From a bacterium (GTDB lineage Bacteria > Auribacterota > Tritonobacteria > UBA1439): a stretch of DNA of 64,000 bases. Positions 21,660-60,387 of the stretch are shown here, piece after piece (position 1 is the stretch's first letter; every line of letters begins with the position of its first letter). The stretch is taken from contig JAQUPF010000004.1 of the NCBI GenBank assembly GCA_028716845.1, positions 62,001-126,000 of the forward strand, given 5' to 3'. The translations under genes and the position numbers were made by a program. The notes under the pieces are model-generated. The model saw only the letters and a program-made list of their open reading frames with translations, had not been told where the DNA came from and made no database searches.

Positions 21660-21965
21660 GGACACAAGGGACAAATCGACCACGGATTGTCACGGATCAT
21701 TGACGGATATGGACGGATCGAACTACAGTTCAAAGTCGAAAGCAGCAATATCCTCTGCGTTCTCTGTGCCCTCTGTGGCGAAAGATGATCCGCGTGCATC
21801 CGCGTTCATCCGCGGCGACAACGTTGTCGTGCTGCGGCTCTCCGCGGCAGCCATCAGCCATACAGCTTACGGCTGGCTCAGGGACGCACACGGATCCGTG
21901 CGGATCCGTACTCATCCGTGCTGACCCGCGGCTGGGACTCCATTGTCGTTATCCGCGGCGGCGAC
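21660..21965. repeat. Interspersed repeat copy R1 (inverted orientation)
   Basis: An AT-richer island between the radical SAM gene and the next GT2. It holds short units of the type ACGGAT/CCGCGG in both directions and one arm of the shared element at 21753-21779 (ends CTCTGTGGC), preceded by AACTACAGTTCAAAGTCGAA. The opposite arm is missing. The order and sequence match the copies at 24.3, 27.2, 29.7, 39.6 and 44.3 kb read on the other strand. The last part (ATCCGTGCGGATCCGTACTC) repeats the degenerate GGATCCGT unit. No gene is apparent. Confidence 0.85.
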
Positions 21966-24129: not shown

Positions 24130-24610
24130 CCAACAGCCGCGGCGGAAACAATGAACTCCTCACCGCGGATCTCCACGGATTGCTTACGGATATGCACGGA
24201 TACGGCTGCAGAAGAAAGAAATGGAGTGTGTGCCGCAGATTGACGCAGCCGCACAACGTTCCTGCCGCGGATGAACGCGGATGAACGCGGATCATCTTTC
24301 GCCACAGAGGGCACAGAGAACGCAGAGGATATTGCCGCTTTCGACTTTGAACGTTCAACTTTGAACTGTAGTTGTTCTCTGTGATCTCCGTGGCAAAAGG
24401 CATACTCTGCTGCGGCTCGTGCGATGAACGGAGTACGAAGGACGAACGACGAACTGCATTTCCAAGATCCGCGTTCATCCGCGGCAGGTACAGCGTGAAT
24501 CTGCGCCAATCCGAGAAGATCCGCAGCAAAGAAACCTGTTTCGCCGCGGCATCCGTGATGATCCGCCATGATCAGCGCACATCCGTGGTGGCTTGGTTCT
24601 TTGATTCCGC
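24130..24610. repeat. Interspersed repeat copy R2 (long form, both arms)
   Basis: About 480 bases without a gene. From 24138 to 24283 it is nearly identical to 29555-29700 (about two differences). Next comes the shared unit: left arm 24301-24327 (starts GCCACAGAGG), a 47-base core (CTTTCGACTTTGAACGTTCA in the middle), and right arm 24375-24394 (ends CTCCGTGGC). The arms are imperfect inverted repeats, 17 of the outer 20 positions matching. Then follow AAAAGGCATACTCTGCTGCG and a GTACGAAGGACGAACGACGA stretch, also found in R4, and finally degenerate CCGCGGAT units ending in GGTGGCTTGGTTCTT. It lies between the terminator at 24100 and the mla operon. Confidence 0.88.
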
Positions 24611-27009: not shown

Positions 27010-27440
27010 GGAAGATGAAACAACAGCCGCGGATCTCCACGGATGAGTGACGGATTCTCACGGAGCCTATGACAATGCCGCCGCGGATGGACGCGGATTC
27101 GGGTGGTGAGCCGCGGATGAACGCGGATTCGGGCAGATCAAATTTCGCCACAGAGGGCACAGAGAACGCAGAGGCTATTGCTGCTTTCGACTTTGAACGT
27201 TCAACTTTGAACTGTAGTTGTTCTCTGTGATCTCCGTGGCGGGAAACAGTATCCGTTATCCGCGAAGATCCGCGGGAATCCGCGGTGGATTGGTTCTTTG
27301 CAATGCAACAACAGCCGCGGATCGACACGGATGAGTGACGGTATCTTCACGGATTCTTCCGCTGCAGTATCCGTGATAATCCGTCATGATCAGCGCGCAT
27401 CCGTGGTGGATTGGTTCTTAGTTTCTGAACCGCTGAATGG
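27010..27440. repeat. Interspersed repeat copy R3, inserted within the mla operon
   Basis: This gene-free stretch separates mlaF from mlaD. Left arm 27147-27173, right arm 27221-27240, core as in R2 (CTTTCGACTTTGAACGTTCA). Flanks hold degenerate CCGCGGAT units and two copies of a GGTGGATTGGTTCTT-ended unit (ending near 27299 and 27419). Within the 47-base core the sequence is almost identical to R2. The repeat carries no obvious promoter, so it may interrupt or only lengthen the operon transcript. Confidence 0.88.
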
Positions 27441-29549: not shown

Positions 29550-29940
29550 GGATCCGCGGCGGAAACAATGAACTCCTCACCGCGGATCTCCACGGATTGC
29601 TTACGGATATGCACGGATCCGGCTGCAGAAGAAAGAAATGGAGTGTGTGCCGCAGATTGACGCAGCCCCACAACGTTCCTGCCGCGGATGAACGCGGATC
29701 CACGCGGATCGAATAATTGAAGGCAGACAGGATTGGATCGTATGGTGCCACAGAGGGCCCAGAGAATGCAGTGGATATTGCCGCTTTCGACTTTGCATGC
29801 TCAACTTTGAACTGTGGTTGTTCTCTGTGGTCTCCGTGGCAAAAGGCATACTCTGCTGCGGCTCGTGCGATGTACGAAGGACAAACGACGAACTGCCATG
29901 GAATCCGTGGAAATCCGCGGTCGATTGTTTCTCATGACGG
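29550..29940. repeat. Interspersed repeat copy R4 (long form, both arms)
   Basis: Almost the same 145 bases as in R2 open this copy (29555-29700). The left arm (29747-29773) has several substitutions (CAGAGGGCCCAGAGAATGCA), the right arm is 29821-29840 (ends CTCCGTGGC), and the GTACGAAGGACAAACGACGA stretch follows. The core differs from R2/R3 at a few places (TTTGCATGCTCAAC). The CCGCGGTCGATTGTTTCTCA end abuts the rnc promoter. No gene is seen. Confidence 0.87.
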
Positions 29941-39498: not shown

Positions 39499-39511
39499 CC
39501 CCTCTCCGGAA

Positions 39512-39745
39512 TAGGAACCAATCCACCACGGATACAAAGAACCAATCCACCGCGGATTCCCGCGGATCCAACTACAGTTCAAAGTTGAACGTTCAAAGTC
39601 GAAAGCGGCAAGATCCTCTGCGTTCTCTGTGCCCTCTGTGGCGAAATATGATCTGCCTGAATCCGCGTTCATCCGCGGTAAATGTCCTTCTCTCCGCTAA
39701 TATCCGTCAATAATCCGTGTCGATCCGCGGCTGTTGGTGCATAGA
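39512..39745. repeat. Interspersed repeat copy R5 (inverted orientation, one arm)
   Basis: Lies between dprA and topA. Two GGAACCAATCCACC/GAACCAATCCACC units (the other strand of GGTGGATTGGTTC) start it; AACTACAGTTCAAAGTTGAA and the arm at 39616-39642 (ends CTCTGTGGC) follow in the opposite orientation to R2-R4. The second arm is missing. The CCGCGG units and GTTCATCCGCGGTAAATG come next, and the topA promoter starts 28 bases after the repeat. No gene. Confidence 0.85.
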
Positions 39746-44235: not shown

Positions 44236-44480
44236 GAATGAATTCACCACGGATTGCCGCTGATCATGACGGATCTTCACGGATTATTGACGGATTATCA
44301 CGGAGACTATGACAATGCCGCTGCGGATGAACGCGGATCATCTTTCGCCACAGAGGGCACAGAGAACGCAGAGGATAGTGCTGCTTTCGACTTTAAACGT
44401 TCAACTTTGAACTGTAGTCGGATCCGTGCGGATCCGTAAGAATCCGTTTTCATCCGTGGTAGATTGGTGCGTTGCATCCG
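44236..44480. repeat. Interspersed repeat copy R6 (one arm)
   Basis: Between waaA and lpxK. It opens with CACCACGGATTGCCGCTGAT-type units, holds the left arm at 44347-44373 and a core ending near 44416 (GAACTGTAGT), then passes into GGATCCGTGCGGATCCGTAA instead of the right arm. It ends with a GGTAGATTGGTGCGTT unit, a variant of the one in R2 and R3. No gene is seen. Confidence 0.86.
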
Positions 44481-56460: not shown

Positions 56461-58161
56461 ATGGGCGACGAATCGCGGAACGGGATCATCTCGACGACCG
56501 TCTCGGTGCGGGGCGCGCGGGGCATCCGCTGGCGCGTGAACCCGGCCCACGCCCCCCTCTTCCTCGCCGACCGGCAGCCCGACCCGCTCGCCCTCCTCAA
56601 GGGGCGGCGCGGGGAGATCATCAAGCGGTCGCCGGCGCGCGTCATCTTCTCCTCGACGCTCGACGACGGGGACGGGGGCCTCCCCGTCGTCATCAAGGTC
56701 TACCGGCACCCGCGGCTCGGCGACTGGATCAAGGCGAACCTCTGCGGCTCGAAGGGGAGTCGGGAGTGGGACGTCACCGTCGCGGCGGCGGGCCGCGGCC
56801 TCCCGACCGTCGTCCCGGTGGCGTTCGGCGAACGGCGCCGGCTCGGCCTCCTCCAGGAGAGCTACCTCATCACGGTCCGCCTCTACGACTGCCTCACGCT
56901 CGAGGAGGTCCTCTTCTCCCCCGACCGCTCGCGGCGGGCCGGCGGGAGGCGGCGGCGGCGCGTGATCGTGCTGCTCGCCGGGATCCTCCGGCGGATGCAC
57001 GACCGCGGCATCCACCACCTCGACCTCCACCCCGGCAACTTCCTCGTCGGGAGGGACGCGGCGGGCGGTGACGAGATCCACCTCCTCGACCTCCACCGGG
57101 CGAACGTGCGGGCCTCCCTCCCCCCGCGCGCGCGCATCAGGAGCCTCTCCCAGTTCAACATGTTCGCCCGGATCTCGCTGTCGAGGAGCGAGCGGCTCCT
57201 CTTCTTCGACGCCTACTTCGGCGCCGACCGGCTCTGGCAGGAGGAGAAGCGGCTGCTCCTGGAGCGGATCGACTCCCTCACCCGGCGGATGAGCTGGCGG
57301 CTCTGGAGGCGGCGCGAGCGGCGCTGCCTGGAGCGGAACAAGTATTTCATGCGCCTCGACTTCGCCCGGATGCGGGGCTTCGCCCGCCGGGACGCCTGGA
57401 AGGGGGAGATGGCGCGCTTCCTCCTCGGCGGCCTCGTCCCCGGCGAGGGGGCGCTCGTGAAGGAGTCCCGGAGCAAGGCGCTCTGGGAGCGCGGGATGGA
57501 GATCGGGGGGGAGCGGCGGACGCTCGTCATCAAGCACTACCGGCCGAAGCGGGGATGGAAGGCGGCCGCCTACCTGTTCCGCCCCTCGCAGGCCATCCGC
57601 TCATGGAGGGGGGCGTACGCCCTCCGGATCAGGAACATCGAGACGGTGAACGCCGTCGCCGCGCTCGAGGAGCGTCGCGCCTTCGGGCGGCTCGGGAACG
57701 CCTACTTCATCTCCGACAAGGTGCCGGGCGTCGAGCACCTCGCCGCCGCGGCCGCCCGCCCGCTCGACGCCGAAGGCCGCCGGCGCCTCGTCCGCGGCCT
57801 CGCCCTCTTCCTCCGGCGCCTCCACGACCGCGGCGCCGCCCACGGGGACATGAAGGCGACGAACATCCTCGTCGGCGGCCCCGCCGGCGGGCCGTTCTCC
57901 TTCTCGCTCTCCGATCTCGACCTCGTGCGGACGGGGCCGTCCGTCCGGCGCCGCCGGGTCGTCCGCGCCCTCGCCCAGCTCAACAAGTCGCTCCTCGACC
58001 TCGACCGGGCGGACCTGTTCGACCGGCGGCGCTTCCTGCGGATCTACGCCGGCCCGCACCGGCGGCGCGAGGCGGCCGCCCTCTGGCGGGCGGTCTCCCG
58101 CCGGACCGCGGCGTACCTGAGGAAGAGCGGCCGGCGCTTCTCGCGGGGGGGCGGCCGGTGA
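56461..58161 (+). CDS. Tandem LPS-kinase-like fusion (two kinase domains)
   Basis: 566 residues from ATG 56461. Domain 1 (about 1-270): VVIKVYRHPR supplies the ATP-binding Lys; His186, Asp188 and Asn193 lie in the catalytic loop (HHLDLHPGNFLV) and Asp210 in LLDLHRANV. Domain 2 (about 290-560): VIKHYRPKRGWKAAAYLFRP, then Asp463 and Lys465 in HGDMKATNILV and Asp485 in LSDLDLVR. Each half has its own lysine, catalytic Asp and metal Asp, so both could be active. Related enzymes are single-domain WaaP/InaA/Kdo kinases of about 270 residues. It may place two phosphates on the LPS core. Coupled to the GT9 downstream (GTGA). Confidence 0.8.
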   Translation: MGDESRNGIISTTVSVRGARGIRWRVNPAHAPLFLADRQPDPLALLKGRRGEIIKRSPARVIFSSTLDDGDGGLPVVIKVYRHPRLGDWIKANLCGSKGSREWDVTVAAAGRGLPTVVPVAFGERRRLGLLQESYLITVRLYDCLTLEEVLFSPDRSRRAGGRRRRRVIVLLAGILRRMHDRGIHHLDLHPGNFLVGRDAAGGDEIHLLDLHRANVRASLPPRARIRSLSQFNMFARISLSRSERLLFFDAYFGADRLWQEEKRLLLERIDSLTRRMSWRLWRRRERRCLERNKYFMRLDFARMRGFARRDAWKGEMARFLLGGLVPGEGALVKESRSKALWERGMEIGGERRTLVIKHYRPKRGWKAAAYLFRPSQAIRSWRGAYALRIRNIETVNAVAALEERRAFGRLGNAYFISDKVPGVEHLAAAAARPLDAEGRRRLVRGLALFLRRLHDRGAAHGDMKATNILVGGPAGGPFSFSLSDLDLVRTGPSVRRRRVVRALAQLNKSLLDLDRADLFDRRRFLRIYAGPHRRREAAALWRAVSRRTAAYLRKSGRRFSRGGGR

Positions 58162-59180
58162 AGAACATCCTCATCATCAAGCCGAGCTCGTTCGGCGACA
58201 TCGTCCAGGCGCTCCCCGTCGCGGCGCGCGCCCGGGAGACCTGGCCGGAGGCCCGGATCTCCTGGCTCCTCAACACGCAGTACCGGCGCCTCCTCGAGCC
58301 GAACCCGTGCGTGGACCGCCTCTACCTCTTCGACCGCGACCGGTGGCGGAAGCGGCGGGACCTCGCCGGCGCGGCCTCCTCGCTCCTCGCCCTCTGCCGC
58401 GAGCTCCGCGCCGCCTCCTTCGACGCCGTCCTCGACCTCCAGGGCCTCTTCCGGAGCGGCGTCCTCACCCTCGCCGCCGGCGCGCCGGTCCGCGCCGGCT
58501 TCGCCGACGCCCGCGAGTTCGCCCATCTCTTCTACACCGTGAAGGTGCGCGCGGCGCGGCCGGACCTCCACGCGGTGGACCGCTGTCTCCTCGCGGCGGC
58601 CGCGATCGGCTGCCGCGGATCGCGCGTCTCCTTCCCGCTCGGCCTCGGCCCCGGGGAGGAGTCCTGGGCGGAGCGGGTCACCGCCGGGCGCCGCCCGCTC
58701 GTCGGCCTCTCCCCCTCGGGGCGGTGGCGGACGAAGCGCTGGCCCGACGACAGCTTCGCCCGGCTCGGCGAACTCCTCCTCGGGCGGGGGGCGGCCGTCG
58801 CGGTCATCGGCGGCCCCGCGGGGGAGGCCGCGGGCGTGGCGGCGCGGCTCCGGGGGCGGGCGATCGTGGCGGACGACGTCGCCGACCCGCTGCGCCTCGC
58901 GGCCCTCCTCGGCCGGCTCGACCTCCTCGTGACGAACGACACCGGGCCGATGCACCTCGCCGCCGCCGCGGGGACGCGCGTCGTCGCCCTCTTCGGCCCG
59001 ACGAACCCGGACCGGACCGGCCCCTGGGGGGAGGGCCACCGGGTCCTCCGCGCCCCCGTCGACTGCGCCCCCTGCTACGAGCGCGAATGCCCCCGCGGAG
59101 ACGACTGCATGCGCGCCATCACCGTCGAGGCGGTGCTCTACGCCGTGGAGGAGTGCCTGGCCGCCGGCAGCCGCTCCTAG
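58158..59180 (+). CDS. Glycosyltransferase family 9 (heptosyltransferase-type)
   Basis: 340 residues from a GTG overlapping the kinase stop. ILIIKPSSFGDIVQALPVAA is the WaaC-like opening (K..S.GDI); FDAVLDLQGLFRSG, GLSPSGRWRTKRWPDDSFAR and LVTNDTGPMHLAAAAGTRVV follow, with FGPTNPDRTGPWG. It resembles heptosyltransferase I, but four Cys near the end (CAPCYERECPRGDDC) match WaaF-type and the gene at 49525. Sugar: heptose likely, position uncertain. The TAG stop lies at the very edge of the mobile-element arm (59180). Confidence 0.86.
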   Translation: MKNILIIKPSSFGDIVQALPVAARARETWPEARISWLLNTQYRRLLEPNPCVDRLYLFDRDRWRKRRDLAGAASSLLALCRELRAASFDAVLDLQGLFRSGVLTLAAGAPVRAGFADAREFAHLFYTVKVRAARPDLHAVDRCLLAAAAIGCRGSRVSFPLGLGPGEESWAERVTAGRRPLVGLSPSGRWRTKRWPDDSFARLGELLLGRGAAVAVIGGPAGEAAGVAARLRGRAIVADDVADPLRLAALLGRLDLLVTNDTGPMHLAAAAGTRVVALFGPTNPDRTGPWGEGHRVLRAPVDCAPCYERECPRGDDCMRAITVEAVLYAVEECLAAGSRS

Positions 59181-59419
59181 CCACAGAGATCACAGAGAAC
59201 ACAGAGTGCATTCACCATGTATGAGGAATTGACACGCGATATAATCGGCGCGGCAATTGAGGTGCACCGAATCCTTGGTCCGGGACTCCTTGAATCGATA
59301 TACGAGGAGGCACTCTGCCACGAGCTGGACATGCGCGGTATTTCATATGAGAGACAGGCGCCAGTGAGCGTCGCGTACAATGGAAAGACATTCTCCGTGT
59401 TCTCTGTGATCTCTGTGGC
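59180..59419. mobile_element. Miniature GxxExxY element with 27-bp terminal inverted repeats
   Basis: Left arm 59180-59206 (GCCACAGAGATCACAGAGAA then CACAGAG) and right arm 59393-59419 (CTCCGTGTTCTCTGTGATCT then CTGTGGC) are inverted repeats with 26 of 27 bases matching. They enclose a truncated GxxExxY gene. The arms are the same sequence, with a few substitutions, as those of repeats R1-R6. The element sits exactly between the GT9 stop codon and the lpxL start, and no target-site duplication is evident. The combination of perfect-looking termini, a coding gene and dispersed derivative copies is what a mobile element and its non-autonomous relatives would show. Mobility is inferred. Confidence 0.6.
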
Positions 59420-59423
59420 TTAG
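59217..59423 (+). pseudogene. Truncated GxxExxY-family protein (PD-(D/E)XK-type)
   Basis: 68 codons. IIGAAIEVHRILGPGLLESI followed by YEEALCHELDMRGISYERQA is the GxxExxY signature (GPGLLESIY). About 55 residues match; full-length family members are about 120-130 and carry the nuclease-type D..ExK residues in the missing half. After YNGKTF the frame passes into the element's right arm and ends with SVFSVISVA, so the arm supplies the C-terminus. No ribosome site precedes the ATG. Either the gene is decayed or this short form is a deliberate product. The family is found with similar repeats in many genomes, as far as I recall. Confidence 0.72.
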
Positions 59424-59430
59424 AACCGCC

Positions 59431-60387
59431 ATGGCTAAAAGAGTCCGGCATAAATTCAGGAAGGAATTCCTCTACTGGTGCGCGGTCGCGCTCCTCGCCG
59501 GCTCCCGCCTCATCCCCGGCAGGGCGCTCTACGCCCTCGGGACGGCGGGCGGCTGGTGCGCGTACCACCTCCTCCGCCGCGAGCGCCGCAAGACCCTCGC
59601 CAACCTCGAGCTCGCCCTCGGCCGCGAGCTGGGCGGGGCGGAGCGGCGTCGCCTCGCCCGCGCCGTCTTCGTCAACCTCGGCAGGAACGTCACCGAGCTC
59701 GCCCTCTACTCGCGGCTCACGAACGAGAACATCCACGGCCTCGTCCGGATCGAGGGGCGGGAGATCGTGGACCGGGCCCTCGCCGGCGGGCGGGGGATCA
59801 TCATCATCACGGGCCACATCGGCAACTGGGAGCTCATCCCGACCTACTTCGCCGCCCTCGGCTACCGCGGGGGGGTCGTCGCGCGGCGGCTTTACTACGA
59901 GAAGTACGAGCGGCTCCTCTACCGGCTGCGGCGGTCGAGGGGGTTCAGGATCTTCTACCGGGACGAACCGCCGCGGGAGATCCTGCGGACGCTCCGGAAC
60001 AACGGGGTCATCGGCATCCTCGCCGACCAGGACGTCCGCAAGCTCGACGGCGTCTTCGTGGACTTCTTCGGGATCCCCGCCTACACCCCCACCGCCCCCG
60101 TCCTCATCGCCGCCAGGAGCGGGGCGCCGCTCGTCCCCGCCCGGATCATCCGGGAGGGGCGGCGGCACCGGATCGTCATCGACGAGCCGATCCACCTCCG
60201 GCGGACCGGCGACCGGGAGGCGGACCTCGTCCGCGCCACGCAGGCGTGGTCGGACCGGATCGAGCGGTACGTCAGGGAGCGGCCGGAGCAGTGGGTCTGG
60301 ATGCACCGCCGCTGGAAGACCAGGCCGGAGGCCGTCCTCGCGCGGCGGCGCGCGGCGGCGCGGGCGGTCGGGGGGCCGCGGGGATGA
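59431..60387 (+). CDS. Lipid A biosynthesis acyltransferase (LpxL/LpxM-type), second copy
   Basis: 318 residues. The HxxxxE motif is at His129-Glu134 (GHIGNWELIPTY), after a hydrophobic N-terminal helix (FLYWCAVALLAGSRLIPGRA). ADQDVRKLDGVFVDFFGIPA and ERPEQWVWMHRRWKTRPEAV are the other signatures. It would add a further secondary acyl chain to lipid A. It differs enough from the gene at 48620 to act on another position or chain length. The start is ATG 59431, eight bases after the GxxExxY frame, with no clear ribosome site; the element may have displaced it. Its stop overlaps the next gene (ATGA). Confidence 0.9.
   Translation: MAKRVRHKFRKEFLYWCAVALLAGSRLIPGRALYALGTAGGWCAYHLLRRERRKTLANLELALGRELGGAERRRLARAVFVNLGRNVTELALYSRLTNENIHGLVRIEGREIVDRALAGGRGIIIITGHIGNWELIPTYFAALGYRGGVVARRLYYEKYERLLYRLRRSRGFRIFYRDEPPREILRTLRNNGVIGILADQDVRKLDGVFVDFFGIPAYTPTAPVLIAARSGAPLVPARIIREGRRHRIVIDEPIHLRRTGDREADLVRATQAWSDRIERYVRERPEQWVWMHRRWKTRPEAVLARRRAAARAVGGPRG

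Follow-up and report, generated by a model that had tools for sequence, protein, structure and literature searches.

GxxExxY genes probably form the protein-coding portion of a small mobile element, made up of 27-bp inverted arms and one nuclease gene, whose spread we infer to be driven by that nuclease. Our best reading, and a likely one, is a mobile system resembling REPIN/RAYT and built on an unrelated nuclease, with the copy in the window (the whole 64,000-nucleotide stretch of DNA analysed here) as an internal-deletion miniature. A wider proposition stands at about even chances: that these are a class of transposable elements of bacteria and some archaea, in which the sole enzyme, a stand-alone Cas4/RecB-type nuclease, reads the three-unit arms of its own element. 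It would spread both this element and gene-less hairpins, in a single genome as many as hundreds of them, leaving no target-site duplication, and would do so in many lineages that each have their own repeat code. GxxExxY proteins are annotated in many genomes, and we know of no function for them. On our reading the family gains a concrete, testable role, and the CTCTGTGTTCTCTGTGGT-like repeats seen in genome after genome gain an origin in its elements. Should the nuclease indeed drive the spread, the Cas4-type PD-(D/E)XK fold joins the short list of folds that power mobile elements, and its protein lineages, matched to different 7-bp units, offer a ready code for studies of DNA reading.

A half gene between inverted arms

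The initial annotation had placed half of a GxxExxY gene between 27-bp inverted arms at 59180-59206 and 59393-59419, with the right arm coding for the residues SVFSVISVA. The arms were re-found at exactly these positions: the left arm is GCCACAGAGATCACAGAGAACACAGAG (27 bp), and the reverse complement of the right arm, GCCACAGAGATCACAGAGAACACGGAG, is identical to it at 26 of 27 positions. The chance of such a pair at most 250 nt apart in a 64-kb window is about 7e-8 (an uncorrected estimate). The window arm is built of three tandem 7-bp CACAGAG units with a period of 9 bp. The element and its surroundings are as follows.

58158-58161, plus strand: GTGA overlap of the kinase and GT9 genes, contiguous here; in the relative G003 this is the site of an intact GxxExxY element
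58158-59180, plus strand: glycosyltransferase family 9-like (GT9) gene, named from its sequence and by the initial annotation; its TAG stop at 59178-59180 adjoins the left arm
59180-59206, plus strand: left 27-bp arm, GCC and three CACAGAG units of period 9, with boundaries as in the 54-locus profile described below
59217-59423, plus strand: truncated GxxExxY ORF of 68 aa, family positions 1-57 of 116 by profile match
59393-59419, minus strand: right 27-bp arm, an inverted match to the left arm
59431-60387, plus strand: lpxL-like acyltransferase gene (name from the initial annotation), downstream of the insertion

The ORF matches TIGR04256 at positions 1-57 of 116 (68.1 bits, cut-off 35) and PF13366 at positions 2-58 of 117 (65.2 bits, cut-off 22). 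Because both matches cover only these positions, the ORF corresponds to just the N-terminal half of the GxxExxY family, as had been proposed. It stops short of the family's catalytic D67, E77 and K79, and its final nine residues, SVFSVISVA, are supplied by the right arm. Being a half gene devoid of catalytic residues, the window copy is itself a miniature derived by internal deletion, with both arms kept and the catalytic half gone; any mobility would therefore need an enzyme from elsewhere.

Related genomes bear out the insertion at the GT9-lpxL junction, a site that had been put forward for checking. The junction holds an element in the window's genome (G000) and is element-free in G001-G004, which are relatives at the level of the family, close enough for a comparison by junction. 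In the same operon of G003, an intact GxxExxY element occupies the junction between the kinase and GT9 genes; it has CACAGAG arms and encodes a protein of 121 aa, and the kinase reading frame continues through the inserted arm. The two genes are contiguous in G000, G001 and G002, which leaves G003 as the only occupied case among the four read. The window element and the G003 element are lineage-specific insertions at two junctions of one operon.

Two further observations touch on this region. At the kinase-GT9 junction of G002 (locus L230), CGCCGAGGGCACAGAGGACTAG lies directly 5′ of the GT9 start and resembles a decayed arm; going by its sequence, it may be what a lost element left behind. In G006, a genome of the same class, the junction that precedes the lpxL-like gene (locus L129) has arms of two other families, CACTAATT-type on the outside and CGCAGAT-type nested inside them.

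Arms, gene-less copies and gene lineages

GxxExxY genes elsewhere also lie between arms, as a proposed check on the initial annotation required: besides a flanked gene in the same genome, described below, tandem CRCNNAK units point inward on both sides at 101 of 145 loci and in none of 604 random control intervals matched in length and contig. The loci come from the window's phylum and, for 80 of them, from many phyla including the archaeal Methanothrix; this cross-phylum part was gathered with a narrow alignment and so leans towards the RAG-unit clade. At 53 loci, and in no control interval, either side bears exactly three units (3+3), and an ungapped inverted-repeat score that uses no motif reached at least 16 at 46 of 77 loci and at 0 of 308 controls. 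By the strict motif about a sixth of the loci (25 of 145) have no units; several of the loci that the motif missed bear arms of other units (for example ACAGGAT, CACATAAG or GACNAAGAG).

The usual arm is ACC followed by three CRCNNAK units with a period of 8-9, 27 bp in all, and has the edge consensus TT[AC]ACC. In the profile of 54 elements with 3+3 units (median length 467 bp), the arms become complementary at ACC and cease to be so 27 bp further in, with sharp edges, and the spacers between units are matched between the two arms as well. Unit spacings in 143 three-unit arms are for the most part 9+9, 8+8 or 8+9; 9+8 does not occur, and the outer spacing exceeds the inner in one case (10+9). 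One type of GxxExxY-like protein is about 270 aa long (open frames of 242-278 aa); a locus of this type, L030, has no arms, and the type may be a relative that has become fixed or is put to a different use.

No target-site duplication was detectable around the 54 elements: the longest string shared by the flanks was 4.28, against 4.27 after shuffling, and identity at the positions abutting the elements was at background level. The direct repeats TAG at the window element and GATGC at the G003 element are within chance for the set. Duplications could have been erased in old insertions.

Gene-less copies abound in the window's genome. Allowing at most two mismatches, CCACAGAGNNCACAGAG has 18 matches in the window, where 0.09 are expected, and 207 in the whole genome of 2.68 Mb, where the pattern reversed as a control has 3. 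Arm pairs were counted in a sample of this genome that came to about 500 kb. Of the 44 that point inward, 43 are short hairpins; the remaining one, the window element, is alone in having more than 150 nt between its arms, and GxxExxY is the only gene found between arms. Examples in the window are listed here.

21753-21778, minus strand: CACAGAG-type arm within a CACGGAT/CGCGGAT-type hairpin (composite)
24265-24292, plus strand: example arm of the second family, three CGCGGAT units of period 10; this unit class flanks the full-length GxxExxY gene on contig C5
24302-24395, no strand: gene-less CACAGAG-type hairpin, with arms at 24302-24327 and about 24375-24395
27148-27241, no strand: gene-less CACAGAG-type hairpin
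29748-29841, no strand: gene-less CACAGAG-type hairpin, degenerate
39616-39641, minus strand: CACAGAG-type arm with CGCGGAT-type units in place of the partner arm
44348-44373, plus strand: CACAGAG-type arm with CACGGAT-type units in place of the partner arm

In the composites (21680-21830, 39510-39690 and 44240-44460) a CACAGAG-type arm is joined through a shared centre, CTTTGAACGTTCAACTTTGAAC, to a partner arm from the CACGGAT/CGCGGAT family, and the point at which the arms are swapped is nearly identical in several copies. Besides the window copy, this genome has a single GxxExxY gene; it lies on contig C5, is full length (131.7 bits) and is flanked by inverted arms of CACGGAT units. As this sole intact gene belongs to the CACGGAT arm family, the CACAGAG copies in this genome may be stranded without their enzyme.

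The repeats elsewhere had been suggested to be non-autonomous copies of the element. This stands in so far as the gene-less copies share its unit; many of them, however, enclose unrelated DNA between their arms, so that not all can be gene copies with a deletion. Sampled genomes show gene-less hairpins of 65-123 bp (G031), frameshifted and decayed GxxExxY remnants between CACGAAG arms (G012), and elements nested within elements of another unit. In G001, three copies of a gene-less interior of about 330 nt lie between CACGGAT arms (L207-L209), and some of the similarity extends past the arms. Several CACGAAG hairpins of G031 (L234-L253) have about 25 nt in common outside the arms (CTTACTCGAAAAGCCTTTTAAA) and look from their sequence as if embedded in a larger repeat. 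No excision or insertion intermediates were seen. Among 72,556 plasmid records, five held relatives of the one GxxExxY query used, and a search of viral contigs with one clade gave no confirmed carrier.

Unit sequence follows gene lineage. A tree built from 144 proteins shows 9 changes of unit class, where shuffled labels give 37. Shuffling within genomes only, which removes any genome-wide unit preference, gave a mean of 24.5 changes and a minimum of 16 against 8 observed (0 of 500 shuffles). Within the RAG-unit clade, shuffling single letters within phyla gave 0 of 300 at each of three positions, and CACGAAG loci group on the tree, for example those of Planctomycetota, Bacillota, Verrucomicrobiota and Mariprofundus. 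A correlation of arms and genes around the genes alone does not prove recognition, because each gene is passed on along with its own arms.

Repeats away from the genes were also considered by genome. The median number of arms is 41.5 in genomes with a GxxExxY gene and 1 in those without; the summed counts behind these medians count CACGAAG arms twice, and a rerun without the overlap gave the same correlation. Gene-less copies of the matching unit number up to hundreds per gene-holding genome and are mostly rare otherwise. Among 22 genomes chosen by their gene's unit, all 8 with a CACGGAG gene have CACGGAG arms (3-212), and all 7 with a CACGAAG gene have none; the reciprocal test with CACGAAG was weaker (p about 0.01, with some counts unmatched). 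The matching gene-less copies are evidence for action in trans, which is likewise correlational.

The predicted nuclease and the source of spread

The PD-(D/E)XK-like fold that the initial annotation ascribed to the family agrees with a predicted structure (pLDDT 96), whose best structural match is Cas4 SSO0001 (Z 9.6), followed by many PD-(D/E)XK chains with Z up to 7.7. D67, E77, K79 and Q91 are invariant or nearly so in alignment A1 or A3, and the family's D...ExK...QxxxY is the pattern of RecB-type nucleases. Matches to Cas4 profiles are present and weak, a sequence search of solved structures gave no match, and alignment A1 has no invariant or near-invariant cysteine, the four-cysteine set of iron-sulphur ligands being absent. 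GxxExxY is thus predicted from the model to be a Cas4/RecB-like PD-(D/E)XK nuclease. In line with a Cas4-like fold, a passage of a reverse-transcriptase survey (PMC8934634) has a gene that CRISPRone called cas4 and that encodes a GxxExxY domain.

Flanked loci and lineage-specific insertions support the earlier suggestion of a nuclease-derived mobile element, in which the nuclease would be the mobilising enzyme. It would recognise the arms of its own element at the DNA level, probably in the hairpin form that they take when single-stranded, and would cut or trim at that hairpin; host replication or repair would then put the released or copied hairpin in elsewhere. In this way it could move its own element and could also act in trans to move gene-less hairpins that share its unit. 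RecB/Cas4-type nucleases usually process ends and do not join strands, and insertion would for this reason need host functions. The lack of a detectable target-site duplication, taken with arms that can form hairpins, would favour a route through single-stranded or repair intermediates over classical cut-and-paste.

The strongest remaining rival is invasion of the homing type, which we regard as unlikely: older hairpins would have spread by other means, and a free-standing GxxExxY endonuclease would cut them and be copied in by recombination. Homing endonucleases with a PD-(D/E)XK fold exist, one of them (I-Bth0305I) is among the Foldseek matches as a weak one, and gene-bearing copies are few beside the many gene-less ones. 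Against this, gene-bearing elements sit at junctions that have no clear repeat in the relatives examined, most genomes without the gene are nearly repeat-free, and the spread of the hairpins themselves is left unexplained.

More doubtful still is that another enzyme, such as a Y1 (RAYT/IS200-like) transposase, spreads the repeats while GxxExxY is a passenger caught between two of them. Y1 transposases were found in 44 of the 59 genomes searched, the window's genome included, and the same relation to REPs is known for them elsewhere (PMC2817692). Repeat number, however, has a partial correlation of 0.71 with GxxExxY given Y1 and of -0.12 with Y1 given GxxExxY. Two genomes with no Y1 match hold about 100 (G020) and about 154 (G026) repeats, and genomes with at least two Y1 genes and no GxxExxY mostly have 0-4. 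Of 20 Y1 genes, not one lies between two arms, with downstream flanks partly covered, and in the 500-kb sample no gene other than GxxExxY lay between arms. On the strength of the partial correlations and of the Y1 gene flanks, so far as covered, we reject a Y1/RAYT transposase as the driver.

The two other readings fit less well than homing-type invasion. That the nuclease serves the host by acting on hairpins (in processing, genome maintenance or defence), with the repeats as its signals and with no part in mobility, is in keeping with a predicted fold of the RecB/Cas4 end-processing type and with the weak Cas4 profile matches; the patchy distribution, lineage-specific insertions, decayed or truncated copies and nested elements look selfish, and we hold this to be very improbable. 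Regulatory or RNA hairpins (terminators or mRNA stabilisers) that enclose the gene by accident are about as improbable: gene-less copies do form hairpins of 65-123 bp in sampled genomes, but positions 20000-64000 of the window gave no Rfam match, the motif is specific to GxxExxY loci (0 of 604 controls), the unit follows the protein lineage, and a terminator does not consist of arms with a gene between them and about 470 bp from one to the other.

Comparison with known systems

The preferred reading, a mobile element spread by its own nuclease, finds its nearest parallel in REP/REPIN-RAYT systems (PMC2817692, PMC3116915). In both, a short repeat stands in inverted orientation on either side of a gene, the gene and its repeat vary together, the repeats are abundant where the cognate gene is present, gene-less inverted doublets form hairpins, and mosaic and nested arrangements occur. 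The enzymes differ, a PD-(D/E)XK nuclease (PF13366) standing in place of the Y1 HUH tyrosine transposase of RAYTs, and so do the repeats: each REP is a palindrome with a GTAG or CGTC tag (PMC3733652), whereas a GxxExxY arm consists of three tandem 7-bp units and is complementary to the other arm. With a PF13366 gene instead of Y1 between the arms, and no palindromic tagged repeat, membership of REP/RAYT was rejected.

MITEs and TIR transposons share terminal inverted repeats, derivatives by internal deletion, and gene-less copies with matching ends. Unlike them, GxxExxY elements have no detectable target-site duplication and many gene-less copies with unrelated interiors. Unlike DDE elements, they hold one small PF13366 gene in a typical length of 467 bp, too short in the elements examined to house a DDE transposase; lacking both that enzyme and a target-site duplication, they were not assigned to the DDE-type TIR transposons.

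Nucleases of the Cas4, RecB and lambda-exonuclease type resemble the protein in predicted fold and in the D...ExK...QxxxY pattern, Cas4 SSO0001 being the closest by the structural model. Compared with these nucleases, GxxExxY is smaller, is without the conserved four-cysteine iron-sulphur set and stands alone between repeats at the loci seen. PD-(D/E)XK homing endonucleases such as I-Bth0305I are similar as small stand-alone endonuclease genes that would spread themselves; to our knowledge, they invade specific allelic sites and have neither inverted-repeat ends of their own nor dispersed gene-less copies.

A search of open-access full texts found no description of a GxxExxY-repeat system. The GxxExxY passages of open-access papers leave repeats unmentioned, none of six 15-mers of the repeat is printed in the open-access texts searched, and shorter fragments occur in open-access papers that, judged by title, are on unrelated subjects. 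By behaviour alone the system could count within the REP/RAYT kind. We set it apart as one that differs in kind from known systems, because no open-access description was found, its arm architecture is distinct and its enzyme is not homologous to theirs.
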